NCBI GenBank assembly: GCA_019636655.1
Contig: JAHBXB010000001.1
Span: 744,001 to 808,000 of the forward strand
DNA from: Phycisphaeraceae bacterium
GTDB lineage: Bacteria; Planctomycetota; Phycisphaerae; Phycisphaerales; UBA1924
Length of the DNA: 64,000 bases
Direction of reading: 5' to 3'
Shown here: positions 6,235 through 50,130 of the stretch, piece by piece
How the letters are laid out: every line of letters starts with the position of its first letter
Position numbering within the stretch: the stretch's first letter is position 1
Made by a program: the position numbers and the translations under genes
The notes under the pieces: model-generated
Database searches by the model: none
Told to the model about the DNA's origin: nothing
Seen by the model: the letters and a program-made list of their open reading frames with translations, nothing else

Positions 6235-6308
6235 CGGGGTGTAGCGCAGCTTGGTAGCGCGTCTCGTTCGGGACGAGAAGGTCGAAGGTTCAAATCCTTT
6301 CACCCCGA
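6235..6308 (+). tRNA. tRNA-Pro (anticodon CGG), integration target
   Basis: Complete cloverleaf. Acceptor CGGGGTG pairs with CACCCCG, the anticodon arm TCTCG/CGAGA encloses loop TTCGGGA (anticodon CGG), and the T arm GAAGG/CCTTT has loop TTCAAAT. The discriminator base is A, and CCA is not encoded. A -10-like TACCAT lies at 6215-6220. The last nine bases (TCACCCCGA) are the core shared with the att copies downstream, and a recombinase gene on the other strand ends inside the tRNA. The gene therefore looks regenerated by an integration event. Confidence 0.95.
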
Positions 6309-7780
6309 CTTGTTTCAGAGTAAAGCCCTTCGATGAGCACATCGAAGGGCTTTCTCGTTGAAAACACAGCACTTGCGCCATCCAGGGTGCAGTTCAAACA
6401 GACGATTTCGAGGATTCGCCGCTTCGTGGCGTAATCCGCAGAAACCCACGTGTTTTGCAGTGTTTGCGAGAGTTCAAACACCTTGGCCGCGAGCTCGGCC
6501 GTTTCGTCGTGGGAACGGTCCAGAACGTCCAGTTGCAGCTTGATGGACGCGAGCCGGTCCCGAAGCTCGGTGTGCTTGCGGGCGAAGGTGTCCTGATCCA
6601 CGTCATCGCCGAGCCGGAGGTTCAGGAGTCGGTCCTGCTGGGCCACCAGGAGCGAGGACTGCCGCAGGAGTTCCTCCCGCTGAGCCCGGGCGTCGGATTG
6701 GGCGTCCCGCGTCTGTGACGCGAGGACAGCCCGGAACCAGTCCCGAACGTCGGGATCGTCCACCTTCATACGAGCGAAGAGTTCCAGCACCTGGCGCTCA
6801 ATCTCGGATTCCGGCACCCGCACCCGCGGATGCCCGTCGGTGGTGTACCGGCTGCACCGGTAGTACACGTACCGACGATCGCCGGACTTGGCCCGCTTGA
6901 TGATTTGCTCACCCGTGATGGCGTGGCCGCAGTGCCCGCAGGTCATGAACTCGCTGGCGAAGGTCATCTGGTGGGCGTGGTAGACATGCCCGCCGAGGAG
7001 GGCTTGCACTCGATCCCAGGTTGAGCGTTCGGCCAGTGGCGTCTGCTTGCCCGGATACCACTGTCCCTTGAACGGGATTTCTCCGATGTACGCCCGATCG
7101 GTGAGAATCGCGTGCAGCTTGCTGCGGGTGAACTTCGGAGCCTCCGGCCGGTACGTCAAGCCCTCCGCATGGAGCCGGTCACGAAGGGCGTCAAGGGTCA
7201 GTGGCTCATAGGCGTAAAGGTGGAAGATCCGTTTGACGTTCTCGGCTGCCGCCGGATCAACTTCGGTGACGCACCGACCATCCCTGCGGACGTTGCGGTA
7301 GCCATAGGGAGCCTTGCCGACGAACCAACCCTCCTGAACCCGACGAGCGAGGCCTTCGCGGACATCGACTGACTGTTGCTCGGTGTAGAAGCTCGCCATG
7401 TTGGCGAGTGTCCGCCGCATCATGCGGCCGGCGGGGTTGTTCTCTGTCGGCTGCGAGACGGAGATGAACCTGACGTCGTACTCCGATTCCAGACGTTCCA
7501 GTTCAACCATGTCGTAGAGGTTGCGGACCGCACGGTCCACCTTATAGAAGAGCAGCCCGTCCAGCTCTTCTGCATGCTTCTTCGCATAGGCAATTAGCTC
7601 GCGGAATGTTGTTCGCTCGTCTGCCTTTGACGCAGTTTCCGCGACCCGAAACAAGCGAACGATTTCGCCGCCAGCGGATGCGGCATATCGACGGAGAGCA
7701 TCCTCCTGCACGGCAAGCGAGAAGCCTTCGCGTTCCTGTTCCCGGCTGCTGACACGTGCCAAGGCGACGAAGCGTTTCAT
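6290..7780 (-). CDS. Large serine recombinase (integrase of the tRNA-Pro element)
   Basis: Site-specific recombinase of 496 residues that would integrate and excise the element. An N-terminal resolvase-type catalytic domain (about 1-150) starts MKRFVALARVSS, with the nucleophile Ser about residue 11. A recombinase domain follows (VREGLARRVQEGWFVGKAPYGYR), then a zinc-ribbon-like segment (MTCGHCGH ... YYRCSRY) and a coiled-coil-like region with a DNA-facing tail. The start at 7780 gives the standard N-terminus; upstream codons are Arg/Ser-rich and not protein-like. The stop and final residues SRGERI lie within tRNA-Pro. Downstream att copies encode SRGD/NRGD-TPIELFLE in the same frame, so the protein probably has a different, longer C-terminus when the element is circular. 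It follows the small gene at 7785 by four bases. Confidence 0.93.
   Translation of the reverse strand: MKRFVALARVSSREQEREGFSLAVQEDALRRYAASAGGEIVRLFRVAETASKADERTTFRELIAYAKKHAEELDGLLFYKVDRAVRNLYDMVELERLESEYDVRFISVSQPTENNPAGRMMRRTLANMASFYTEQQSVDVREGLARRVQEGWFVGKAPYGYRNVRRDGRCVTEVDPAAAENVKRIFHLYAYEPLTLDALRDRLHAEGLTYRPEAPKFTRSKLHAILTDRAYIGEIPFKGQWYPGKQTPLAERSTWDRVQALLGGHVYHAHQMTFASEFMTCGHCGHAITGEQIIKRAKSGDRRYVYYRCSRYTTDGHPRVRVPESEIERQVLELFARMKVDDPDVRDWFRAVLASQTRDAQSDARAQREELLRQSSLLVAQQDRLLNLRLGDDVDQDTFARKHTELRDRLASIKLQLDVLDRSHDETAELAAKVFELSQTLQNTWVSADYATKRRILEIVCLNCTLDGASAVFSTRKPFDVLIEGLYSETSRGERI
6300..6308 (+). other. attL core at the tRNA-Pro 3' end
   Basis: TCACCCCGA is the tRNA 3' end including the discriminator base. 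The same nine bases occur at 38997-39005, 39686-39694 and 44217-44225, and with one change at 46280-46288 and 50120-50128. On the minus strand it encodes the last residues of the recombinase, so it is read here as the crossover region of attL. Confidence 0.7.
6322..6358 (+). terminator. Hairpin downstream of tRNA-Pro, probable terminator inside recombinase codons
   Basis: A perfect 13-bp inverted repeat (AAAGCCCTTCGAT / ATCGAAGGGCTTT, six-base loop) followed by CTCGTT begins 14 bases after the tRNA. It is well placed to end or trim the tRNA transcript. The same bases on the other strand encode KPFDVLIEGL near the recombinase C-terminus. A related hairpin at 39709-39738 keeps its pairing although bases differ. 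The trailing U tract is short, so termination strength is uncertain. Confidence 0.6.
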
Positions 7781-7784
7781 GGCG

Positions 7785-8000
7785 TCACTCCCGCTTGAGA
7801 AGCTCGAACAACCGTCCTGCCGTCTGGACAATTGTAATCGCTTCTTCGACGGAAAGGGGCTTTCCGTAGCGGGGTTCCCACACTTTTCGCGTGAGGAGCA
7901 CGAGCTCCGGCGTGATCCACTCGGGCGTACCGACAGGAAGCGACGCCGGGGCATCACGCCGCGCAACCAGTTCGTCAAGATGGAGCGTCCGTCTCGCCAT
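7785..8000 (-). CDS. Small protein coupled to the serine recombinase
   Basis: Conserved-looking 71-residue protein of unknown activity whose stop codon is four bases before the recombinase start, so the two are almost certainly co-transcribed and translationally coupled. The central motif TPEWITPELVLLTRKVWEP followed by PLSVEEAITIVQTAGRLFELL is helical. It resembles small proteins I recall beside serine recombinases in planctomycetes and other phyla; that recollection is unverified. No catalytic motif, signal peptide or membrane segment is present. A recombination directionality factor or recombinase accessory role is inferred from position only. The start codon is the first of the frame. Confidence 0.75.
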   Translation of the reverse strand: MARRTLHLDELVARRDAPASLPVGTPEWITPELVLLTRKVWEPRYGKPLSVEEAITIVQTAGRLFELLKRE

Positions 8001-15523: not shown

Positions 15524-15928
15524 TCACCACTTTATCTGCTCGACAACTGTGGCCTCTTCCGGTGACTCCAAGCTCTCTGGTTGGTCGGCCTCTTGCACCC
15601 ACGACACCCTGTGCCGCGCGATCCCCTCGAACAGTCGGACCGTCGATCGTACTTCCGAGTTGAGGTTACGCCCTTTGACTTGGATCTTCCGGCCGGCAAC
15701 GGAGAGCGTGATTCCATCAGATGGATTGAACTCGACATGGTCGAGGTAGCCATATCCGACGGCAAGGATGTTCCCATCCTTCTTGCGAAGTTCGAGCATC
15801 ACGGCACGATCGCGGATTCCGCGGAGCCAGCCGAAGCACCCGCAGTCCTCCGTTGTGTCTGACTCCGAACCGTGTGGCGTGTCTTCATTCTTGCCGGAGT
15901 ACCGCTGAAGAATCGATCTATCGGTCAT
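15524..15928 (-). CDS. Hypothetical protein downstream of the relaxase
   Basis: 134 residues, unrecognised. The central beta-rich part (DRAVMLELRKKDGNILAVGYGYLDHVEFNPSDGITLSV) ends in GRKIQVKGRNL and FEGIARHRVSWVQEAD, which looks like a compact all-beta domain. The N-terminus is polar and the C-terminus acidic. Its start lies inside the relaxase gene (11-base overlap), so it is translated from the relaxase message. Being paired with the relaxase suggests an accessory role in mobilisation; the sequence gives no direct evidence. Confidence 0.75.
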   Translation of the reverse strand: MTDRSILQRYSGKNEDTPHGSESDTTEDCGCFGWLRGIRDRAVMLELRKKDGNILAVGYGYLDHVEFNPSDGITLSVAGRKIQVKGRNLNSEVRSTVRLFEGIARHRVSWVQEADQPESLESPEEATVVEQIKW

Positions 15929-18563
15929 ACGTCATCCCTTCTCTTTCGTGCGGCTGATCCGTCAGAATCGGCAGCAATCGCTCAAGCCGCCATTGGTGCC
16001 GGCCCCGCTCACGAAGGTCGGCCCCCATCAGGTCGCTGGCCGCCAGCTTGTCGTCTGAGTGGCTGACCGCTTCGAGGAGCGCCTCCTTGTCGTCCGTGTA
16101 GATGGTCGCGCCAACGCGACCGCGCGACACAGACACGTAGAACTGCTCTCGCGATGATGCTGGAAGTGAATGGGACGACTGAGCGATGAACACTCGCTTC
16201 ACTGTCTTTCCCTGGGAAGCGTGCGAGGTCACGACATAGCCGTGCGAGAGATGCCCGAATGCCCTGCAGATGGTCCACTTGTTCGTGAGCCGGATGTCGC
16301 CGCTGCTCGTGAATCCCGCGACGGTATAGAGCGTGCCATTGTTCAGGTCATGCAACCCGTCAGCCGTCTTGCCGTTCCGCGTGATGCGTATCCGGTCGCC
16401 GGGAGCAAGCGGCAGAACGCTTCGCCTGAAGACCTGGAACTTGCTCGCGTCGGCAAATGGAATCGCGTCAACTCCGACCGTGAGCCGCTGACCCTTCCGT
16501 ACGCCCTTTGCATTCTGGTGAAACACCAGCACGTCACCGGGGGCATAGTTGAGCGGGTCCATTCGCTCGGCCTCTGTGAAATTGACGGCCTCCAGGGATT
16601 CCACGCGATGCTCGCCGCTTCCGAGCTTGCCCATAGTCTTGAGCCGTGATCGAATCTCATCGGTGATCCACTCGCCCTCCAAGTGTGTCGGCGAGACGAC
16701 GAGAGCGGCCTTGTCAGACGGGTCCTCCGACACTGCCTTCACGTAGTCTTCCGCGAGCACCCTATACCGATCCACATCGGACACTTCCTTGATCCATCCC
16801 AGGTCATCCAGTTGCCGGAACCCGGCGGGCGTGTTTCCGCTGCTCAAGGCCTGGACGGCGTCCCGGTATTCACCGCTCTGCCTCTGAATCTCGCGAAGTT
16901 CCGCAGGAACCAAGCCAGCTTGGTCCTCCAGGAGACGCAAAGCGGCCCCGCGTTCCACCGATCCGTGCTGCCGACGGTCGCCCGAGAGGATGACGCGGGT
17001 GTGCAGACGATCAGCCAGGTCGAACACCCGACCCATCGTGCGAGTCCCGAGCAACCCCGCTTCGTCGATCCATATCACCTGGTCGCGAAGCTCTGCCTGC
17101 ATGCGATCGTCGGTCAGCAGCCGGGCAACGGTCTCTGCCTTGCTGAATCCCTCCTCTTCTCGGAGCACGCCGCGGCTTGCGCCGGCCGACGGAGCGAACG
17201 TGAAGACCTCCTTGCCCGTCGCCTCAATGGCCTCGATGGTCTCTTTCATCATGGTCGTCTTGCCGGTTCCAGCACCGCCACGAACCAGAATGACACGGTC
17301 TCGCGAATGGAGCACATGCTCGACAGCGCGGCGCTGGTCATGGCTGAGGTGTTGACGCTTGAAGGCGTGGATGCCTCGCACCAACTGACGGCACGCGCCG
17401 CGACCATTGCGGGCAAACACGATCATGTCTCGCTCCTCGGAGAGCACGCGCCGCGTCGTGACAAGACGACGCCCATCTCGCTGCGCAGTCAGCACGTCCG
17501 CGACCGCGACCTTGGCTACGACTGTTTCCGGAGATGCCGCGCCGACCGCCCGCCGCAGAGCCTCTGTCAGCAGTCGGCGCTCCGGCACAACGGAAGCCCG
17601 TTCGAAGGTGTGGTCGAGAGCGTTCCGCACCGCCTCACTCGCCAGACGATCGTCTTCGGCCATCTCCTCGCGCCCGATCCGCGCTCGGACGGACTGCATG
17701 GCCGTGAGTTCTTCCGCCGACATCCGCGCCGTCCACTGCTCTTGCAACTCATCGAACCGAAGGTTCTTCTGCTTCTTCTCCCTCGTCTTCGCGCCCAGCT
17801 CGCCCTTAGCGTCCGGGTCGGTAATGCCGAGCTCTTTCGCGAGTTCCTCAATCTGCCTCGTGCGCCGCGAGAACTTTGTGATCGCCGAGGATGGCACTCC
17901 GCACAGATCCCACCCTTGTTTCGTGCGTTCAACCGCCAGCCCGAGTTCCTCGAGCCGGCGAGCCAGCCGCGAGTGAAAGACCGCCTCAAAGAACGGAGCA
18001 TCGCGCTTGATGCCGGCGAACTGTCCGGCCTTCCAGCGCTGTTCGACCGGGTCCCATGTGGAGTTGAAGACGAAGCAATGGACGTGCAGCTGCGGATCAG
18101 GCAATCCATCGACCGGCCTGCCGGTCGTGTGCAGGTACTGGCCGTAGACCATGTTGCCGGTTGTCCGATCCTCGTTCCGACCCCCGGACCGCACGCGTGT
18201 CTGCATCTCCGCTTCGATGTCTTCCATCGTCGCGTCTACAGAATCACGGATCGCGTCGGCAATCCGCTGATCTTTAGACACCGCGTAAAGGAGCGAGACG
18301 CTCTTGGGCACGTTGAACGTGAAGTCGTAGCCCACTCGCCTGTCTCTCTTGATGCGCTGCGTAAGCGGCTCCCCGCTCCATGGGTCGCGATTGTCGCACA
18401 GCGCGTCCCATTGCTCCTGTCGAATCACACCGCCCAATCCCAGTCGCCTTGCACCCTCGCCCCGCCAAAGGCCGACAAGCTCCTGACCTTCGCTGTAGTA
18501 GTCAGCCGTACTGAAGTACGACTGCGCGCCGGCGGACGACGTGTTCTGGATGATGCGCAGCAT
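15918..18563 (-). CDS. MobF-family relaxase-helicase (TrwC/TraI-like)
   Basis: 881 residues. The N-terminal relaxase domain has tyrosines in SYFSTADYYSEG (catalytic candidates near residues 16-23) and the metal-binding histidine motif PDPQLHVHCFVFN near residue 165. The C-terminal part is a RecD-like superfamily 1 helicase with Walker A VRGGAGTGKTT near 430, IWIDEAGLL and LSGDRRQHGSVERG. Later helicase motifs GYVVTSHASQGKT and SVSRGRVG are also present. Such proteins nick oriT, stay linked to the 5' end and unwind the transferred strand. It is shorter than F TraI. The nick site should be in the 526-base region upstream (18564-19089). With the coupling protein at 9738 it makes the element mobilisable. 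Confidence 0.95.
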   Translation of the reverse strand: MLRIIQNTSSAGAQSYFSTADYYSEGQELVGLWRGEGARRLGLGGVIRQEQWDALCDNRDPWSGEPLTQRIKRDRRVGYDFTFNVPKSVSLLYAVSKDQRIADAIRDSVDATMEDIEAEMQTRVRSGGRNEDRTTGNMVYGQYLHTTGRPVDGLPDPQLHVHCFVFNSTWDPVEQRWKAGQFAGIKRDAPFFEAVFHSRLARRLEELGLAVERTKQGWDLCGVPSSAITKFSRRTRQIEELAKELGITDPDAKGELGAKTREKKQKNLRFDELQEQWTARMSAEELTAMQSVRARIGREEMAEDDRLASEAVRNALDHTFERASVVPERRLLTEALRRAVGAASPETVVAKVAVADVLTAQRDGRRLVTTRRVLSEERDMIVFARNGRGACRQLVRGIHAFKRQHLSHDQRRAVEHVLHSRDRVILVRGGAGTGKTTMMKETIEAIEATGKEVFTFAPSAGASRGVLREEEGFSKAETVARLLTDDRMQAELRDQVIWIDEAGLLGTRTMGRVFDLADRLHTRVILSGDRRQHGSVERGAALRLLEDQAGLVPAELREIQRQSGEYRDAVQALSSGNTPAGFRQLDDLGWIKEVSDVDRYRVLAEDYVKAVSEDPSDKAALVVSPTHLEGEWITDEIRSRLKTMGKLGSGEHRVESLEAVNFTEAERMDPLNYAPGDVLVFHQNAKGVRKGQRLTVGVDAIPFADASKFQVFRRSVLPLAPGDRIRITRNGKTADGLHDLNNGTLYTVAGFTSSGDIRLTNKWTICRAFGHLSHGYVVTSHASQGKTVKRVFIAQSSHSLPASSREQFYVSVSRGRVGATIYTDDKEALLEAVSHSDDKLAASDLMGADLRERGRHQWRLERLLPILTDQPHEREGMTYDR

Positions 18564-38825: not shown

Positions 38826-38970
38826 TTCAGATCGATCCGGCAATGTCGATAGACGGGTCAATCACCGTGACGCGCGGCGTCAGTGCCTGTGGGCTTTGCA
38901 CCCTATCTGCCTTTCACGGTTTCACGGGTGAGCAAAGCCCGGATTCCGGGTTCCCAGTCCCCTATCCCCG

Positions 38971-39007
38971 CCACAAAAAGTTCAACTGGCGTACTGTCAC
39001 CCCGATT
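38971..39007 (+). repeat. att copy A, right end (attR) of the element
   Basis: Arm AAAAAGTTCAACTGGCGTACTG followed by core TCACCCCGA (38997-39005). Read on the minus strand it encodes NRGDSTPVELFVAGIG, the recombinase C-terminal extension seen at the other att copies. The reading frame then ends after RETVKGR. With the tRNA core at 6300-6308 it defines the element. Confidence 0.75.
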
Positions 39008-39016
39008 GACGATCTA

Positions 39017-39056
39017 AACGCCCGCAGGCGAACACCCTGCGGGCGTTCTCGTTTTG
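39017..39056 (+). terminator. Terminator hairpin immediately right of attR
   Basis: Perfect 12-bp stem AACGCCCGCAGG / CCTGCGGGCGTT with a seven-base loop, then CTCGTTTT. Its position relative to the core is the same as the hairpin after the tRNA, so it probably served as the tRNA terminator before the current element inserted. Confidence 0.75.
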
Positions 39057-39125
39057 GGGCTTGACTGATCGCTTGTTCGGCAGCACGTTCTTGCACAGCA
39101 TTCAATGGCGTGATACACCGGTGGT

Positions 39126-39590
39126 ATGGGTGAGTACACGGCCGTCATTCAATGGAAACGAGCCGGTGCGGCCTTCACAGATAACCGCTACAGCCGTGAG
39201 CACCTCTGGCGATTCGATGGCGGGATTGAAGTGCCCGCCTCATCCTCACCGCAAGTTGTTCCGGTTCCCATGTCGGCTGTTGCGGCGGTAGATCCGGAGG
39301 AGGCGTTTATTGCCAGCCTGTCCAGTTGCCACATGCTCTGGTTTCTGTCCATTGCTGCCAAGCGCGGATTTGTGGTCGACAGTTACCGTGACGAGGCGCT
39401 CGGAGTTATGGCCCGGAACTCGGCCGGCAGAATGGCCATGACGCTCGTCACGCTCCGTCCCGCGGTCGAGTTCGGCGGCGAGAGACTCCCCGCGGCGGAC
39501 GACCTCATCACCCTGCACCACGAGGCGCACGAGCAGTGCTTCATTGCCAACTCTGTGCAAACCGAGGTCAGGTGCGAACCGATCCAATAG
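39126..39590 (+). CDS. OsmC-family peroxiredoxin-like protein
   Basis: 154 residues. OsmC/Ohr proteins detoxify organic hydroperoxides with paired cysteines. The segment FIASLSSCHMLWFLSIAAKRGFVVDSY holds the conserved first Cys, and HHEAHEQCFIANSV holds the second Cys, both with standard spacing. The N-terminal half is beta-rich (YTAVIQWKRAGAAF). There is no ribosome binding site. TTGCAC (39091-39096) and TACACC (39114-39119, spacer 17) lie just before the ATG, so the message may be leaderless. It is the only gene of the first accreted segment. Confidence 0.88.
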   Translation: MGEYTAVIQWKRAGAAFTDNRYSREHLWRFDGGIEVPASSSPQVVPVPMSAVAAVDPEEAFIASLSSCHMLWFLSIAAKRGFVVDSYRDEALGVMARNSAGRMAMTLVTLRPAVEFGGERLPAADDLITLHHEAHEQCFIANSVQTEVRCEPIQ

Positions 39591-39603
39591 GCGGCCGTCT
39601 TTG

Positions 39604-39750
39604 TCATGCACTCTTGATCATCACAGCGGAGATCGCCAGGCTCCACTCGCTAACGCTCTCCAAGAAAAGTTCTATTGGTGTCCTGTCACCCCGACTTTTC
39701 GAGAGATCAAGCCCTTCGACGAGCGTGTCGGAGGGCTTTTTCGTTGTGGG
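39604..39750 (-). pseudogene. Relic of a serine recombinase 3' end with att copy B
   Basis: On the minus strand the frame reads KPSDTLVEGLDLSKSRGDRT, then PIELFLESVSEW and a stop. The first part aligns with the end of the live recombinase (KPFDVLIEGLYSETSRG), so about 17 codons of an older recombinase remain joined to the extension arm. No catalytic domain is left upstream. Confidence 0.7.
39649..39697 (+). repeat. att copy B
   Basis: Arm TCCAAGAAAAGTTCTATTGG then core TCACCCCGA at 39686-39694. It is followed by a hairpin AAGCCCTTCGAC / GTCGGAGGGCTT (39709-39738) with TTTTCGTT, matching in place and shape the hairpin after the tRNA. Confidence 0.75.
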
Positions 39751-39962
39751 GACATGAGTTGCAGCGCAGTTCTGATGGTTCAAATACCTGCGCCGCACGG
39801 GCGAAGAATCACCTGAAATCGGCTGACTCATGAGAGGATTTGAACTCTCCACCCCAGCGCACAGAGCAGTTTCGGTGCTGGACGGCTGCGGCCACCATCG
39901 GGGGTGCTCCCGGCGGTTGCAGCGCGGGATACGCCCGCTCCGGTCTCGTATCCTCCAGTGCA

Positions 39963-41363
39963 ATGCTGCTTGAGATCTCCACGACGCATACCCCTGCCGG
40001 CGACCTGGGTTACCTGCTTCACAAGCATCCGGGCCGGGTCCAGACCTTCAAGCTGGCGTTTGGCGATGCGCACGTCTTCTACCCAGAAGTGACCGCCGAG
40101 CGCTGCGTCGCAGCCCTTCTCATCGATGTCGACCCGGTGGCGCTTGTTCGAGGCAAAGGTCGCGAGCGAACGCTTGACCAGTACGTCAACGATCGTCCCT
40201 ATGTGGCTTCGTCAATGCTCGCAGTGGCCATCGCCCAAGTATTCGGAACCGCTTTGGCCGGGAACTGCAAAGACCGCCCGGAGCTGGTGACCACGCCGAT
40301 CCCCTTGTCCGCTCGGATCGCATCGATTCCGTGCCACGGAGGCGAAGATTTGCTCAAGCGGCTCTTCGAGCCGCTGGGTTATCGCTTGGCCGTCACCTCG
40401 CATCTCCTCGATGAGCAGGTTCCAGAGTGGGGAGCGTCGTCGCTATTCGCGGTCACAATCGATGCAACGAAGACGCTGTCGGACCTACTAAGCCATCTGT
40501 ACGTACTGGTCCCTGTTCTCGACAACGAGAAGCACTATTGGGTAGGCGACGACGAGGTTGCCAAACTCCTCCGTCACGGTGAGGGGTGGCTGGCGGGGCA
40601 TCCGGAGCGAGATCTCATCGCCACCAGGTACCTGAAGTACCGACGCAATCTTGCGGACGACGCGATCAAGCAGTTGCGTGAACAGGACGGCGAAGGACCC
40701 GAGGAAATCGAAGCCGATTCGCCAGATGACCCCCGCGAGGAGGCGGCGGAGCGCCGGCTCAGCCTGCATCAACAGCGGCACGGCACTGTGCTCTCGGTGC
40801 TCCAGGCCAAGGAAGCCAAACGCGTCATCGACCTGGGGTGCGGCGAAGGCAAGCTGGTTCGCGAACTGCTCAAGCACCGGGCCTTCGAGAGGATCGTCGG
40901 GATGGATGTTTCCCACCGAACCCTGGAGATCGCCGCGGACCGTCTCAGGCTGGAGCAGCTTCCGCCGCTGGTGCGCCAGCGTGTGGAACTCTTCCACGGC
41001 TCGCTGATGTATCGAGACAAGCGGCTGGAGGGATTCGATGCCGCTGTGCTGTGCGAAGTGATCGAGCACATGGACGAGCCGCGGTTGTTGGCGATGGAAC
41101 GTGTCGTGTTCGAGTTTGCCAAACCCGGGGTCGTGATCGTGACCACGCCCAACAGCGAATACAACGTGATGTGGGAGAGCCTCGACGCAGGGGCTATGCG
41201 CCATCGGGATCATCGTTTCGAGTGGACGCGTGAGCAATTCCGCACTTGGGCAAGCGCGGTCTGCGCTCGCTTCGGATACGGGGTGGAGCTACGGCCAGTC
41301 GGTCCGGAAGAGCCGAATGTTGGATCCCCTACGCAGATGGGGGTGTTCACCCGTGGCCGTTGA
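39963..41363 (+). CDS. hen1: Bacterial Hen1 RNA 3'-terminal 2'-O-methyltransferase
   Basis: 466 residues. Methylates the terminal ribose of cleaved RNA at the repair junction so that it cannot be cut again. The N-terminal domain (LLEISTTHTPAGDLGYLLHK, FKLAFGDAHVFYPEV) is specific to bacterial Hen1. The C-terminal AdoMet domain has RVIDLGCGEGKLVREL and the Hen1 metal motif CEVIEHMDEPRL, then VIVTTPNSEYNV. The ATG at 39963 gives the canonical start; upstream codons are not protein-like. TATCCT just ahead (39949-39954) suggests a near-leaderless message. It overlaps pnkp by 11 bases, the conserved arrangement. Confidence 0.95.
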   Translation: MLLEISTTHTPAGDLGYLLHKHPGRVQTFKLAFGDAHVFYPEVTAERCVAALLIDVDPVALVRGKGRERTLDQYVNDRPYVASSMLAVAIAQVFGTALAGNCKDRPELVTTPIPLSARIASIPCHGGEDLLKRLFEPLGYRLAVTSHLLDEQVPEWGASSLFAVTIDATKTLSDLLSHLYVLVPVLDNEKHYWVGDDEVAKLLRHGEGWLAGHPERDLIATRYLKYRRNLADDAIKQLREQDGEGPEEIEADSPDDPREEAAERRLSLHQQRHGTVLSVLQAKEAKRVIDLGCGEGKLVRELLKHRAFERIVGMDVSHRTLEIAADRLRLEQLPPLVRQRVELFHGSLMYRDKRLEGFDAAVLCEVIEHMDEPRLLAMERVVFEFAKPGVVIVTTPNSEYNVMWESLDAGAMRHRDHRFEWTREQFRTWASAVCARFGYGVELRPVGPEEPNVGSPTQMGVFTRGR

Positions 41364-43974
41364 GATCAAGGTTCCTGAACTCTCCCTTGTGGTGATGATC
41401 GGCGTCTCCGGCTCCGGAAAGAGCACGCTCGCTCGCCGACTATTCAGGCCGACAGAGATCCTCTCCTCCGACACTTGCCGGGGCTGGGTGTCTGACGACG
41501 ACAACAATCAAGAGGCCACCGGCGACGCCTTTGATGTGCTCCACTATGTAGCTCGCAAGCGGCTCGCACGGGGCCTGCTGACAGTGGTCGATGCCACGAA
41601 TGTCCGAGCCGAGGATCGCAAGCCGCTGGTCCAGTGTGCGCGGGAGTTTCATTGCCTCCCCGTCGCCATCGTGGTCGATACTCCCGAGCGTACCTGCCAC
41701 GATCGCAACGCGATCCGACCAGATCGCAGCTTCGGGCCTCACGTTATCCGCAACCAGAAGATGGCCCTTCGTCAGGGGATGCGTACGCTGGAACGTGAGG
41801 GGTTCCGTCATGTATTCTTCGTGAGCACGCCAGAGGATTGCGACGCCGCGACGCTCGTTCGCGAACCACTCTGGAACAACCTCAAGCACGAATCCGGACC
41901 GTTCGATATCATCGGTGACGTTCATGGCTGTTACGACGAGCTGGTCGAACTGCTCATGAAACTTGGGTACGGCCTGACGCAGATCCCCGGCGATCCAGAG
42001 GGACTTTGTGATCTGCTCGGCCCGCCAGGCATGTCGCGGAAGCTAGTGTTTGTCGGGGACCTGGTCGACCGCGGCCCCAAGACACCGTCTGTCCTTCGGC
42101 TGGTGATGAAGCTGGTTCAAGAGGGCAAGGCCCTGTGCGTACCCGGTAATCACGACATCAAGTTGCTCCGAGCTCTGCGTGGCAAGAACGTGCAGATCAC
42201 GCATGGGCTGGCGGAATCACTGGCACAACTTGGGGCCGAGTCCGAGGAGTTTCGGAGGCAGGCTGCAACTTTCATTGACGATCTGGTGAGCCACTATGTC
42301 CTCGACGGCGGTCGCCTTGTGGTGGCACACGCGGGAATGAAGGAGTCCATGCAAGGACGGGGCTCGGGGGCAGTTCGAGAGTTCGCCCTCTTCGGCGAGA
42401 CCACCGGAGAAACCGACGAGTTCGGCCTACCCGTTCGGTACAACTGGGCCGGCGAGTATCGGGGCAAGGCTGCCGTGGTGTACGGACACACCCCCGTGCC
42501 CGAGCCCGAGTGGCTCAACAACACCGTGTGTATCGACACCGGATGCGTGTTCGGCGGATCACTGACGGCGCTTCGCTGGCCGGAGAGAAAGTTCATCAGG
42601 GTCCAGGCTCACGCGAAGTACGCTGAGTCGAAGAAACCCTTCCTTCCCGAAGAGCAGCTTGCCCCGCTGTCGCTGCAACAGCAGCACGACGATGTGCTCG
42701 ACCTTGACGACATCTCGGGCAAGCGGCATATCGAGTCCCGGTTGATGCGAACCATCACGGTGCGTCAGGAGAACGCCGCAGCAGCCCTGGAGATCATGAG
42801 CCGTTTTGCGGCCGATCCACGATGGGTCATCTACTTGCCTCCCACGATGTCGCCGTGCGAAACCAGTCGGGAACCGGGGATGCTTGAGCATCCGCGGGAA
42901 GCATTCGAGTATTTCCGAACCAACGGCGTTGGTCGCGTGATCTGCGAAGAAAAACACATGGGATCGCGAGCGGTGACGATCGTCTGTCGCGAGCCCGAGG
43001 TTGCCTGGAAGCGGTTCGGTGTCGCCCCGCCTGTGACCACGTCGAAACTGTTGGGGGCTGACGCGGCAGCAGACACGCTTGGCCTGATTTACACTCGCAC
43101 TGGCAGGCCATTCTTCAACGACCGCCTGACCGAGCAAACCCTCATGCGGCGCCTTCGTAATTCGATCACACAGTCAGGACTGTGGGATGAACTCCAGACA
43201 GACTGGATGTGCCTTGATTGTGAGCTCATGCCTTGGTCTGCCAAGGCTCAGTCGCTGATTAGGGAGCAGTACGCCGCCGTGGGCGTTGCCGCCATGACCG
43301 GCCTCCAAGGCAGTGTCGCCGCGCTCGAACAGGCACAGGCCCGGCTTCCGGAGGTGAGGTCGCTGCTTGACCGCCATCGCGAGCGACTGGAGCTAGTCCG
43401 AAAGTACACGGCCGCGTACCGGCAGTATTGCTGGAACGTCACCACTGTTGACGACCTTCGGCTCGCCCCATTCCACCTTCTCGCGAGCGAGGGGAAGGTT
43501 CACATGGACCGCGACCATGTCTGGCACATGGAGTCGCTCGCCCGCATCGCCGCCGCCGGAGATCCGGTGTTTCTCGCCACACCCTCCAGGATCGTGGACT
43601 TGTCGAGCCAGGAGAGCGAGGATGAAGCCACGAGTTGGTGGACAGCCCTCACGTCTCGCGGGGGTGAGGGCATGGTGGTCAAACCGCTGGAGTTCATCGC
43701 CAAAGGACCCCGTGGCCTGCTCCAGCCAGCGATCAAGGTCCGGGGACCGGAGTACCTGCGGATCATCTATGGGCCGGAGTACACGCTGCCGACCAACCTC
43801 GACCGCCTTCGATCGCGCGGGCTTGGGGCAAAGCGGTCGCTCGCTATGAAGGAGTTTTCGCTCGGAGTAGAGTCCCTCGAACGGTTTGTGCGGCGGGAGC
43901 CTCTACGACGGGTTCACGAGTGTGTATTCGCGGTGCTCGCGATGGAGAGCGAACCTGTTGATCCGCGGCTGTGA
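41353..43974 (+). CDS. pnkp: Polynucleotide kinase-phosphatase-ligase (bacterial Pnkp)
   Basis: 873 residues, three enzymes in one chain. Kinase: P-loop GVSGSGKSTLARRLF near residue 18. Phosphatase: FDIIGDVHGCYDEL, GDLVDRGPKTPSVL and GNHD near 200-280. Nucleotidyltransferase (ligase half): EEKHMGSRAV with the adenylated Lys near residue 535, and a long C-terminal part. Together with Hen1 it heals and seals RNA ends after ribotoxin cleavage. The GTG at 41353 gives a short N-terminus before the P-loop; an ATG at 41317 inside hen1 is possible. The pair occupies its own segment between att copies B and C. Confidence 0.95.
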   Translation: MAVEIKVPELSLVVMIGVSGSGKSTLARRLFRPTEILSSDTCRGWVSDDDNNQEATGDAFDVLHYVARKRLARGLLTVVDATNVRAEDRKPLVQCAREFHCLPVAIVVDTPERTCHDRNAIRPDRSFGPHVIRNQKMALRQGMRTLEREGFRHVFFVSTPEDCDAATLVREPLWNNLKHESGPFDIIGDVHGCYDELVELLMKLGYGLTQIPGDPEGLCDLLGPPGMSRKLVFVGDLVDRGPKTPSVLRLVMKLVQEGKALCVPGNHDIKLLRALRGKNVQITHGLAESLAQLGAESEEFRRQAATFIDDLVSHYVLDGGRLVVAHAGMKESMQGRGSGAVREFALFGETTGETDEFGLPVRYNWAGEYRGKAAVVYGHTPVPEPEWLNNTVCIDTGCVFGGSLTALRWPERKFIRVQAHAKYAESKKPFLPEEQLAPLSLQQQHDDVLDLDDISGKRHIESRLMRTITVRQENAAAALEIMSRFAADPRWVIYLPPTMSPCETSREPGMLEHPREAFEYFRTNGVGRVICEEKHMGSRAVTIVCREPEVAWKRFGVAPPVTTSKLLGADAAADTLGLIYTRTGRPFFNDRLTEQTLMRRLRNSITQSGLWDELQTDWMCLDCELMPWSAKAQSLIREQYAAVGVAAMTGLQGSVAALEQAQARLPEVRSLLDRHRERLELVRKYTAAYRQYCWNVTTVDDLRLAPFHLLASEGKVHMDRDHVWHMESLARIAAAGDPVFLATPSRIVDLSSQESEDEATSWWTALTSRGGEGMVVKPLEFIAKGPRGLLQPAIKVRGPEYLRIIYGPEYTLPTNLDRLRSRGLGAKRSLAMKEFSLGVESLERFVRREPLRRVHECVFAVLAMESEPVDPRL

Positions 43975-44180
43975 GGCCCCTTGCCGCTTTCACGGTTTCA
44001 CGGCGAGCAAAACCCGCGTTTCTAGCAGGCCGTTGAAGAATGGCGGCGAAGACCGGCAATGTCGATAAACGGTCTGACACCGTGAGGAGTGCATCGGTGC
44101 CTGTCGGCCTTACGACTATCGCACAACTCTTCGAAACCACCTTGGCGATCAGCAAACGGCATATCCTCGGCTCCCAGAGC

Positions 44181-44227
44181 CTAACGCCCTCCAGGAAAAG
44201 CTCTATTGGTGTACTGTCACCCCGATT
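44181..44227 (+). repeat. att copy C
   Basis: Arm GGAAAAGCTCTATTGGTGTA then core TCACCCCGA at 44217-44225. The minus strand stays open and encodes NRGDSTPIELFLEGVRLWEP, and further along RPTGTDA and RLSTLPVFAAILQRPA, the longest preserved extension. A GGCAATGTCGATA block and a TTTCACGGTTTCACGG block upstream are shared with copy A, in swapped order. Confidence 0.75.
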
Positions 44228-44288
44228 CAACTCAGTAGAATCACGACCAGGCCACCGCACTATCTCACCCGCTCGAGGAGCACTCGCC

Positions 44289-44584
44289 GTGAAGCTGCTC
44301 GCATTGGAGGTCGAAGAACCCGGCACCTCGCCAGAGGCGTTTCGCCCTCACCTCAGGGAAGAAGCTAAGGCCCTCTGGGAACTCTACCTCTCCGGCATCG
44401 TGCGCGAGCGTACTTCCGCCCGGACCTTCACACCGCGGTGCTTGTTCTGGAATGCCCCGACGCGGAGCGTGCGAGAGAAGCCTTCGCGTCTTTGCCGCTG
44501 GTTCGTCACAATCTCATCCACTTCGAGGTCGTCCCGCTCACTCCCTACTCTGGGTTTGAAAGGCTATTTACGTCGAGCGCGTAA
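44289..44584 (+). pseudogene. Frameshifted small protein gene (alpha/beta dimeric barrel-like)
   Basis: Starts with GTG after a good GAGGAG site and reads VKLLALEVEEPGTSPEAF, then ALWELYLSGIVRE. One base appears to be missing near 44408. In the next frame the protein resumes YFRPDLHTAVLVLECPD and continues to NLIHFEVVPLTPYSGFERLF before a stop. Rejoined, it gives about 98 residues resembling muconolactone-isomerase-like (YciI/MIase) folds. The break could be a real mutation or a sequencing error. The 130 bases after it, to 44714, show no gene. Confidence 0.65.
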
Positions 44585-44732
44585 GCCTATCAGTTTGTTC
44601 GTCGCTTAGCCCCGCTGCCAAGCAGATGGCGAGGAACAGAGACAGAACAGATCTCGCGACCTGCAATCCGTTTACCGGACTGATTCAAATCTCTGTCGAT
44701 GGGGCCAGTACGTTGTGGAGAATACTGAAGCC

Positions 44733-45290
44733 ATGCCTGACGCGAAGGCACGAACCCCGATCAGTGAATCCGTCACCATCACACCATGTTCCCACGACGA
44801 TTGGCCAGCTGTGACACGACTGCTTTCCGAAGTCTATGTCGGCGAGGGTTTCACCTCGGCGGAACGCGCCAACACGTTTTTTTGTCAAGAGCAGCTTGAG
44901 CCCGCGGGGGCAGTCCTTTGTGCGAAGATAGGAACGAGTACGGTTGGCGTCGTGATCCTGCTCCACCGCGACAGCCCGCTCAAGCAGGTCTCGCTGGATG
45001 AAGAGGCGGAGTTCAGGCTGCTTGCCGTGCATCGGTCGGCCCGCGGGAGGGGCGTTGGTGAGGCGTTGGTCGCCGAGTGCATTCGGCGATCCGCGGCGCC
45101 GCCGCTGGCCGCTCGATCGCTCGTGCTTTGGACGCAGCCGCGAATGACCGCCGCGCAGCGGCTCTACGAGCGGACCGGCTTCCGTCGCGCTCCGGAACGG
45201 GATGCGCTGCTTCCTCCGTATCCCCACGGCCCGGACGGATCGCTTGTGGAGCGATGGGTGTATTGCCGCGGTCTTTGGGGCCCGCGCTAG
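44733..45290 (+). CDS. GNAT family N-acetyltransferase
   Basis: 185 residues. The acetyl-CoA loop is seen in FRLLAVHRSARGRGVGEALVAECI (R/Q-x-x-G-x-G/A pattern), then the helix TAAQRLYERTGFRRAP typical of GNAT enzymes. N-terminal VTITPCSHDDWPAVTRLLSEVY is the usual first strand-helix. Substrate unknown. The ATG at 44733 is uncertain, since a GTG at 44715 in the same frame is also possible. It overlaps the convergent second acetyltransferase by four bases. Confidence 0.85.
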   Translation: MPDAKARTPISESVTITPCSHDDWPAVTRLLSEVYVGEGFTSAERANTFFCQEQLEPAGAVLCAKIGTSTVGVVILLHRDSPLKQVSLDEEAEFRLLAVHRSARGRGVGEALVAECIRRSAAPPLAARSLVLWTQPRMTAAQRLYERTGFRRAPERDALLPPYPHGPDGSLVERWVYCRGLWGPR

Positions 45291-45946
45291 CCCATCCTGC
45301 TCAGCCGTCTCTCGAGTTGCGCCTTCACCCCCAGCCATTCGTCGTCCACGATGCTGTAGTGGACCCAATCGCGTACCGCCGGTTCCGTTCGATCCAAGGC
45401 CGCCGGCATGATCCTGGCCTTTCTGAGAACACCTTCCCGCACGGCTCCAAGCTTGGCAATGGCCGCCTGGCTGTGCATATTCGTGCCATTGGTGGTCAGT
45501 TGCACACGGATTGCGGTGGGTGAAAGTGACTCAAAGGCATGTCGCAGCATCAGATACTTGGCCTCGGGATTAGCGCGCGTGCCGTGATAGGCGCGTCCGA
45601 TCCACGTCCGGCCGATCTCCAGTCCCCGATGCTCTGGCTTGATGTCCATGAACGTCGTTCGTCCGATCGCCTGTCCCGCTCGCTTGTCCCGGTCATCGCA
45701 GGCCAAGACGATCGCGAACGCCACGGTGCCTGGAAGAGAGATGACTTTCGTCAATTCCAGCTCAAAGCCTCGAACGGACCACTCCGGCGGCGCCTGCATG
45801 CTGTGCCGGAAAAGCTCCTTGTCAGCCACCGTGAAGAGATCGACTGCGTGATGGGCCTCCAGTGGAACCAAGCGAATTGTGCGAACCAAGCCAGGGCAAT
45901 CGAGCGTCATCGGAGTGATCCACGAGACCGAGTTCGTCTGCGTCAT
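45287..45946 (-). CDS. GNAT acetyltransferase, RimJ/RimL type
   Basis: 219 residues. The pattern LVRTIRLVPLEAHHAVDL, IGRTTFMDIKPEHRGLEIGRTWIG, KYLMLRHAFESL and GTNMHSQAAIAKLGAVREGVLRK matches the RimJ/RimL-like subgroup that acetylates protein N-termini or small amines. It is close to a group I recall as annotated for GNAT proteins acting on amino groups of peptides; exact substrate unknown. Convergent with the other acetyltransferase. The first few residues before LVRTIRL are loose, so the start may be internal. Confidence 0.85.
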   Translation of the reverse strand: MTQTNSVSWITPMTLDCPGLVRTIRLVPLEAHHAVDLFTVADKELFRHSMQAPPEWSVRGFELELTKVISLPGTVAFAIVLACDDRDKRAGQAIGRTTFMDIKPEHRGLEIGRTWIGRAYHGTRANPEAKYLMLRHAFESLSPTAIRVQLTTNGTNMHSQAAIAKLGAVREGVLRKARIMPAALDRTEPAVRDWVHYSIVDDEWLGVKAQLERRLSRMG

Positions 45947-46377
45947 GCTTGCAGTCCTGATCTGAACTGATCGACTCCAACGGTTGTCGCTTCGTCACCG
46001 ACGCTCCGTACTCCTCGCGACATGGCTCTCGCAGAGGCTCAATAAGATACAACTCATACCAAGATGCTGCAAAGCGTATCGTCGGTGGGCGAGATGACCC
46101 AGTTGTCGAAGCAATCGCCGCGCATCAACGGGCCAATCGAACGCACTCCAAGCCCAAAGGTCAGCGGGAGTCCGGGTATCCCGTTTTTTGCGAGTCCACG
46201 GACGGCTCAGATCGGCTGGGTTCCGGGTGTATTCGGCCCGAAACTGTCGCCCTCCAAGAAAAGTCCTGTTGGCGTACTGCCACCCCGATTAGCACACGAG
46301 CGCCTGTGAGCTTCGGCTTACGGAGTCTTTTGTTTGACTGATGCCCAGCTGGAGCCGGGTTGCAGAAAACTCGATGG
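45947..46377. other. Intergenic stretch containing att copy D
   Basis: No gene recognised. It contains the promoter region of the minus-strand acetyltransferase and att copy D (46250-46290). No other repeat or hairpin stands out. Confidence 0.4.
46250..46290 (+). repeat. att copy D
   Basis: Arm CCTCCAAGAAAAGTCCTGTT and core CCACCCCGA at 46280-46288 (one change from the tRNA core). The minus strand encodes NRGGSTPTGLFLEGDS, a decayed extension that soon ends. Confidence 0.7.
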
Positions 46378-49188
<2,811 letters not shown>

Positions 49189-49466
49189 GGGTGGCGAGTG
49201 TACGGGTCCGAGGGATCACCGTGCCGATTGAACCCTTGCGGAGATCACCAAACGCCGGGTCCGCGACTCCCATACCCCAACGCGTCCATGAGAATGCGAG
49301 TGGGCCCTATCGCCCAGACTCATCCCTAAAGCCCATCGAATCAAGGACTTGCGAGGCCATGTTTTCTTGAGAGTTTTGACTCTTGCCCTTGCGCGTTGCT
49401 CTCGGTGTGACCACAGTACCGCTCGGCGATGACGAAACCGGCGCCTCTATCGGTAGCATTCATCAC

Positions 49467-49967
49467 ATGAGCACGCGCGACACGATCGGCACAATCCTGG
49501 ACATTCACGCGATGGTCCAGCGATTCCTCGTCGAGGCCGTCGAGGACGTTCCGGACTCCCGCATGACCAAGCAGCCAGGCTCGATCGTCAACCACCCGGC
49601 CTGGACGCTCTCGCATCTCAACGCGTACGCGGGCGTGTTGCTCTCGATGCTCGATGACCCGAGCGTACCGACGGCCGACACCGAGATGGAGCGGTTTGGG
49701 TATGGCACGACGCCTGTATCCGACCGCGCTGCCTATGCGACGAAGCTCGAACTCCTTGAACGGTTCAGAGATCGGAACTCGCGGCTTGCGGCGGTCGTCG
49801 CCGAGAGGCACTCAGACTACTTCCCGAGACCCTCGCCGGAGAAGTTCCATCCCTACTCGCCGACCATCGGACACATCGCCATTACGCTGCTTGTGGTGCA
49901 CCCTCCGCATCACCTGGGCCAACTTAGACAATGGCGCCGCGCCGCCGGAATCGCGGAACGGGTGTGA
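49467..49967 (+). CDS. DinB-like putative metal-dependent hydrolase/transferase
   Basis: 166 residues, four-helix DinB/YfiT fold. Candidate metal ligands are His in VNHPAWTLSHLNAYAG and the HPPHHLGQLRQWRR motif near the C-terminus. Roles of the superfamily include thiol-S-transferases; the substrate here is unknown. The ATG at 49467 gives the typical start (TRDTIGTILDIHAMVQRF); longer forms add non-protein-like residues. TAGCAT is close upstream, and there is no Shine-Dalgarno, so a leaderless message is possible. Confidence 0.85.
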   Translation: MSTRDTIGTILDIHAMVQRFLVEAVEDVPDSRMTKQPGSIVNHPAWTLSHLNAYAGVLLSMLDDPSVPTADTEMERFGYGTTPVSDRAAYATKLELLERFRDRNSRLAAVVAERHSDYFPRPSPEKFHPYSPTIGHIAITLLVVHPPHHLGQLRQWRRAAGIAERV

Positions 49968-50085
49968 AACGGTGAGTGACAAAAGAGAATCTCTTCAATG
50001 AAGACGACGTGTGCTGATTTCACCCACAGATGGGACGCTGGAGAAGTAGATGGCAAAGACGCCGGAGTTCAATCATCCACACCCG

Positions 50086-50130
50086 AACGCTCGCCAAGAG
50101 CGGTTTTATTGGTGTACTGCCACCCCGATC
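50086..50130 (+). repeat. att copy E, outermost
   Basis: Arm CGCCAAGAGCGGTTTTATTG with core CCACCCCGA at 50120-50128. The minus strand encodes DRGGSTPIKPLLASVRVW and later LLQRP. To its right begins the backbone with thyX, so this may be the oldest insertion boundary. Confidence 0.7.

Follow-up and report, generated by a model that had tools for sequence, protein, structure and literature searches.

The window analysed here is a stretch of 64,000 nucleotides from a Phycisphaeraceae bacterium, near the start of which a recombinase gene on the minus strand reads into the antisense strand of a tRNA-Pro(cgg) gene. The open reading frame spans 6290-7978, with the ATG at 7780 as its likely, inferred start. 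The product carries the Pfam domains Resolvase, Recombinase and Zn_ribbon_recom in that order, all three above the cut-off, and is therefore a large serine recombinase. Its C-terminus reads ...YSETSRGERI and is followed by a TGA at 6292-6290, in the T loop of the tRNA. The proposal from which this analysis started, that the stop codon and last residues of the recombinase are supplied by the tRNA, was borne out. The features of the left junction and of the element attached to it are as follows.

6235-6309, plus strand: tRNA-Pro(cgg), the integration target and attB side of the left junction (ARAGORN)
6290-6292, minus strand: TGA stop of the recombinase, supplied by the tRNA T loop (sequence; identical stop in 21 of 27 relatives)
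6290-7780, minus strand: large serine recombinase, 496 aa in the integrated form (open reading frame and Pfam)
6300-6308, plus strand: common core TCACCCCGA at the left junction (sequence)
6309-39005, no strand assigned: integrated element of about 32.7 kb (junctions)
6322-6353, plus strand: hairpin resembling a tRNA terminator (inverted repeat), inside the recombinase codons KPFDVLIEGL
15918-18563, minus strand: TrwC-type relaxase of the element (Pfam TrwC, 3e-69)

A 14-bp stem occurs at the matching place in the left ends of relatives. Across numerous units, a terminator-like hairpin is found within the first 45 nt after the core in roughly half of the left ends; in units with a recombinase it sits in the codons KPFDVLxEGL and could terminate transcription of the tRNA.

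The right end of the element and the units beyond it

The core TCACCCCGA is found on the plus strand at 6300, 38997, 39686 and 44217, and a variant, CCACCCCGA, occurs twice, at 46280 and 50120, and both copies share the same upstream arm. This 30-bp arm, AAAAGTTCTATTGGTGTACTGTCACCCCGA, is present in three copies with 1-3 mismatches, compared to 0.00 expected by chance. The right-end arms (R-arms) and the coding sequence across them are listed below.

38903-39004, minus strand: tail codons of arm A, RGDSTPVELFVAGIGDWEPGIRALLTRETVKGR, and stop (translation; reading frame of the circle)
38976-39005, plus strand: R-arm A, right end of the element and attP half-site (core 38997-39005)
39604-39768, minus strand: arm B joined to a C-terminal remnant of a recombinase, KKPSDTLVEGLDLSKS-RGDRTPIELFLESVSEWSLAISAVMIKSA, and stop (translation)
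44196-44225, plus strand: R-arm C
46259-46288, plus strand: R-arm D, core CCACCCCGA
50099-50128, plus strand: R-arm E, core CCACCCCGA

Translated in the recombinase frame, the five arms give RGDSTPVELF, RGDRTPIELF, RGDSTPIELF, RGGSTPTGLF and RGGSTPIKPL, in close agreement with the NRGD/SRGD-S/R-TPIELFLE type of peptide that the earlier note had ascribed to them. Joining the ends at 6300 and 38997 in silico, the check proposed in that note, produced a longer in-frame C-terminus: the reconstructed circle encodes a recombinase of 524 aa that ends SETSRGDSTPVELFVAGIGDWEPGIRALLTRETVKGR, with 31 residues in place of the final three of the 496-aa form. An extension of 27 to 60 residues had been predicted, which holds roughly for arms A, B, D and E (517-526 aa) and fails for arm C, where the frame stays open for more than 80 codons. 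The junctions lie at the positions that had been claimed for them. In one relative (G256), tRNA-Pro is followed directly by TTGACGATTGAAACGCCCGC..., of which 54 of 64 positions, core included, are identical to the window sequence past arm A, as expected for an empty site. The G256 junction fits such a site, and because the match ends after the terminator hairpin it may represent a shared left end instead of chromosome.

Genes of the element encode ParB, the relaxase, an ArdC-like protein and RND efflux (Pfam). From 38997 to 50128 the window contains an array of cassette-like units, each closed by the same R-arm and most of them lacking a recombinase; similar arrays were seen in four other genomic contigs (L092-L093 in G007:C128, L105 in G024:C10, L106 in G020:C51 and L099-L100 in G023:C1). 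Of 174 arm junctions, 23 have a recombinase-type left end. Between arms B and C, the unit at 39840-43974 encodes a PNKP-ligase protein (Pfam), and the open reading frame upstream of it is read as a Hen1-like methyltransferase, a pair that would constitute bacterial RNA-repair genes as mobile cargo. The arrays were also considered as integron-like, an interpretation abandoned in view of the serine type of the recombinase and the tRNA-like site.

Variable endings and a conserved tail among relatives

A scan of 84,980 species genomes for relatives of the recombinase yielded 27 loci that are 67-98% identical to it. In each of the 27, the recombinase reads into tRNA-Pro (cgg, ggg or tgg) from the same codon, the tRNA being either complete or reduced to a 21-44 nt 3' fragment. 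Relatives at a greater distance (43-46% identity) have the same layout, with one reading into tRNA-Ala (L136) and two into the 3' ends of tmRNA genes (L135, L137). Overlap of the recombinase with an RNA gene is therefore a trait of the family. The T loop is TTCAAAT in 21 of the 27 relatives, which places a TGA after Ile; in the remaining six it is TTCGAAT, and the frame continues for 12 to 39 or more antisense-tRNA residues. Given that endings differ with the T loop and with the choice of tRNA-Pro, tRNA-Ala or tmRNA as target, the tRNA-encoded ending is whatever the target supplies, and is not conserved. At four loci with the TTCGAAT tRNA (L019, L029, L031 and L035) the frame traverses the antisense tRNA, for example as RGERIRTSDLLVPNETRYQAALHP, and such run-ons would show up as spurious C-terminal ends in protein databases. 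Two IMG/VR viral contigs (L325, L326) terminate precisely where such a recombinase has its T-loop TGA; IMG/VR seems to trim proviruses at this tRNA-derived stop.

In most relatives examined, tRNA-Pro sits behind a pilin-like gene. The pilin-like gene and tRNA-Pro(cgg) together (L290-L314; 5143-6309 in the window) form a syntenic integration hot spot in the family, and the left end behind them differs in almost every genome. Six junctions (L017, L018, L023, L027, L033 and L034) carry only part of a tRNA. Partial tRNAs were considered as attP sites with a built-in TGA, a reading that would have overturned the proposal and was rejected for those that were traced: G008 (L023) and G003 (L017) have an intact tRNA-Pro further out, followed by an open reading frame with tyrosine-integrase motifs, and in a viral contig (L327) a protein of the Phage_integrase family lies alongside. 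We read the traced partial tRNAs as leftovers of tyrosine integrases that would serve the serine element as secondary targets. Elements with tyrosine integrases (L331, L332 and L327) share this tRNA-Pro as their site, and the 44-nt piece of tRNA that they leave behind becomes a target for the serine element. The junctions at L027, L033 and L034 suggest that 21 nt of tRNA may be enough for the left attB half-site.

R-arms were present in 80 of 163 genomes of the family, and a reversed control pattern gave no match. We chose 157 non-redundant arms by the DNA near the core, mostly by pattern, with a minority of the loci searched coming from a profile that includes the tail. Their consensus in the recombinase frame is RGD[SR]TP[VI]ELFxxG[IV]RxWxxxxRxLL, with a variant position at ELF[LVA]xG. 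Of the 157 arms, 139 keep this frame open for 27 codons; the remaining frames are open in 4-111 arms, and shuffled sequences in no more than 103. Most tails end at codons 27-34. The peptide and the open frame also appear in an initial collection of 46 arms that a DNA pattern had retrieved.

Patterns of substitution point to selection on the encoded peptide. In independent sister pairs, pN/pS of the tail was 0.54 (0.48-0.62), compared to 0.69 or higher in the other five frames, and it was 0.43 in the most recent pairs. Past the binding-site region, in the distal tail, differences at the three codon positions numbered 258/197/305 (p=9e-6), while a control region downstream of the tail gave 653/653/676 (p=0.77). 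Taken by itself, the distal tail did not reach significance in information content (p 0.31 for 46 arms and 0.09 for 157), and we therefore relied on the sister-pair tests. By these measures the tail is under moderate constraint at the protein level. The constraint is as strong in arms whose units lack a recombinase (distal pN/pS 0.59). The claim that the other end of the element carries a longer in-frame C-terminus thus extends to many genomes, in which this C-terminus is conserved and constrained.

At the DNA level, the first 30 bp of the R-arm are strongly conserved and contain a likely zinc-ribbon motif. GTTCAA of the tRNA T loop starts 21 bases from the end of the core, and GTTCAA or GTTCTA in the arm starts 26 away. 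In LI integrase, attB and attP differ by a 5-bp shift (Rutherford and colleagues, PMC3783163). The 5-bp offset seen here may be an attB-attP shift of the LI type, which we take as support and not as proof because it was noticed post hoc and on the right half-site alone.

What integration would do to the recombinase

The reading that attP lies within the recombinase gene, so that integration would exchange a conserved tail for antisense-tRNA residues, has strong evidence in the sequences, because the far end of the element encodes the missing 3' end in frame. The gene is very probably split, with its body at the left end of the element and an in-frame tail at the right. In the integrated state, the body would read into the antisense strand of tRNA-Pro instead of a tail of about 27-33 codons, and the full protein would be encoded only in a circular or tandem form.

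Searches of plasmids, phages and viral contigs revealed no circular form, and those of plasmids and phages no recombinase bearing a tail. A class-wide search did not find an intact recombinase body with a tail: the full-length reading frames listed all ended at tRNA-type sites, and tails were attached solely to remnants or to one C-terminal half (L095). At L095, at least 319 recombinase codons are fused in frame to a tail; it was rejected as an intact full-length gene, with its N-terminal part missing and stops upstream. A 435-codon frame fused to a tail in another genome (G157, L149) was also rejected, as an antisense frame with a mere fragment of a recombinase. The earlier note had named two outcomes as speaking against its proposal, circular relatives whose recombinase stops before the core and integration junctions lying elsewhere. 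Both were looked for, and no attP-type junction with the recombinase frame closed ahead of the core came to light. An AlphaFold2 model of L095 predicts the tail with low confidence; this C-terminal half is structurally similar to solved serine integrases (4kis, 9dxd and others), with Foldseek E-values down to 6e-10 and low TM-scores.

The favoured and simplest functional reading is a one-way latch, which we propose tentatively and would put somewhat below an even chance. The full-length form made from the circle would be the enzyme competent for integration, and loss of the tail upon integration would lower or alter its activity; the tRNA-encoded end would be arbitrary and have no role of its own. 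Since excision would join the recombinase body to whichever arm participates, the R-arms would together amount to a stock of exchangeable 3' ends for the gene. The equal constraint on arms of units without a recombinase counts against a role confined to units that have one, so that reassortment is needed; if frequent, reassortment of arms and bodies would explain it. The whole explanation, comprising split gene, latch and arm pool, has in our estimate slightly better than an even chance. We are more hesitant about the broader formulation in which the att site of a serine recombinase would be a built-in protein switch, the tail swap altering activity or direction and the units sharing a pool of 3' ends; this is possible, and we consider it slightly less probable than the latch.

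The main rival is a compact layout without a switch, in which attP overlaps the 3' end of the gene as the gene abuts the end of the element. The tail would then slightly aid folding or stability, and both forms would recombine. The persistence of intact recombinase bodies in integrated elements despite very different tRNA-derived endings favours this account, as do the low confidence of the tail model and the only moderate reduction in pN/pS; however, recent pairs are as constrained as old ones (0.43), which argues that the tail matters for something. We consider both the layout explanation and the minor stabilizing role it assigns to the tail unlikely, if serious, contenders. A direction switch ranks next: the full-length enzyme would perform attP x attB recombination, and the truncated form would excise, whether or not it needs an accessory factor. 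Integration is the very step at which the tail is lost, and directionality is influenced by the C-terminal regions of serine integrases (PMC3783163), but the truncated ends range from 3 to more than 39 residues, and we regard such a switch as improbable. The earlier argument from the coiled coils that control directionality in large serine integrases does not transfer directly to this case, because the tail lies C-terminal to both the coiled coil and the recombinase's terminal strand.

Conservation of the first 30 bp, with their likely zinc-ribbon motif, and the fact that most arms adjoin units without a recombinase would also be expected if the R-arm were kept purely as an attP binding site, the open frame being a by-product of common descent. 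The codon-position and pN/pS signals, however, reach to about codon 25, past the expected binding site, and are equally strong in recent pairs, which makes this explanation very improbable. Least probable, and in our view barely credible, is that the tail acts as a degradation tag that destabilizes the circle form, as in mycobacteriophage BPs, with integration stabilizing the enzyme. The sizes are similar (33 residues in BPs; PMC4557955), hydrophobic LL occurs near the end of the tail, and one tail (L113) ends LLLAA. Unlike such a tag, the tail is most conserved at its start and middle, and its last residues vary (VSP, VKP, KRD, LEG).

What stops serine integrases from undoing integration is a central question, and genome engineering makes use of these enzymes. 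A C-terminus that changes naturally upon integration makes a direct test available, with two forms of one enzyme acting on four att pairs.

Relation to known systems

Staphylococcal cassette chromosome elements (SCC), with the large serine recombinases CcrAB, form tandem arrays with repeated att sites and enter the 3' end of a protein gene. DsiB of Dehalococcoides is reportedly a homolog of CcrB. The family described here shares with SCC the large serine recombinase and the tandem arrays with repeated att sites, but it inserts at a tRNA gene, and its att site falls within the recombinase gene.

The nearest precedent is DsiB. The dsiB gene overlaps attL and ssrA, and its authors suggested that it may be functional solely on the circle or beside an island that carries a 3' fragment (McMurdie and colleagues 2011, PMC3146451). 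In both systems a serine recombinase lies at the left end, with its 3' end overlapping attL and an antisense RNA gene (here in 27 of 27 relatives), and islands occur in tandem, some without a recombinase (PMC3146451). DsiB targets tmRNA, whereas the element in the window is in tRNA-Pro and its family is mainly found there, with tmRNA as the target at L135 and L137. The 3' fragment was not identified for dsiB, for which divergent ends were reported; here the fragment was found, and it evolves as coding sequence. As far as the open-access literature shows, this is the first identified 3' fragment of a split serine recombinase gene that evolves in this way, and it supplies, in a related system, the kind of missing piece that was merely suspected for dsiB. 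A serine recombinase family aimed at tRNA genes is also now seen, whereas the Islander study of 2014 stated that none was known (PMC4383910).

Integration within a gene has been described in two other settings. In mycobacteriophage BPs, as here, attP lies inside a gene and C-terminal residues are removed upon integration, about 33 of them from the repressor (PMC4557955). The BPs site is in the repressor gene and the tail lost there contains an ssrA-like tag; the gene interrupted in the present family is that of the recombinase, and no such tag is evident. The suicidal integrases of archaea are tyrosine recombinases split through attP and have been called exclusively archaeal (PMC8371274). The SSV-type enzymes among them share with the present family an integrase gene that contains attP and is split upon integration (PMC8371274), so that gene-splitting integrases would extend from archaeal tyrosine recombinases to bacterial serine recombinases. 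In the SSV-type tyrosine recombinase the catalytic part is severed, whereas in the serine recombinase described here the loss is confined to the tail, and the catalytic and DNA-binding parts are retained.
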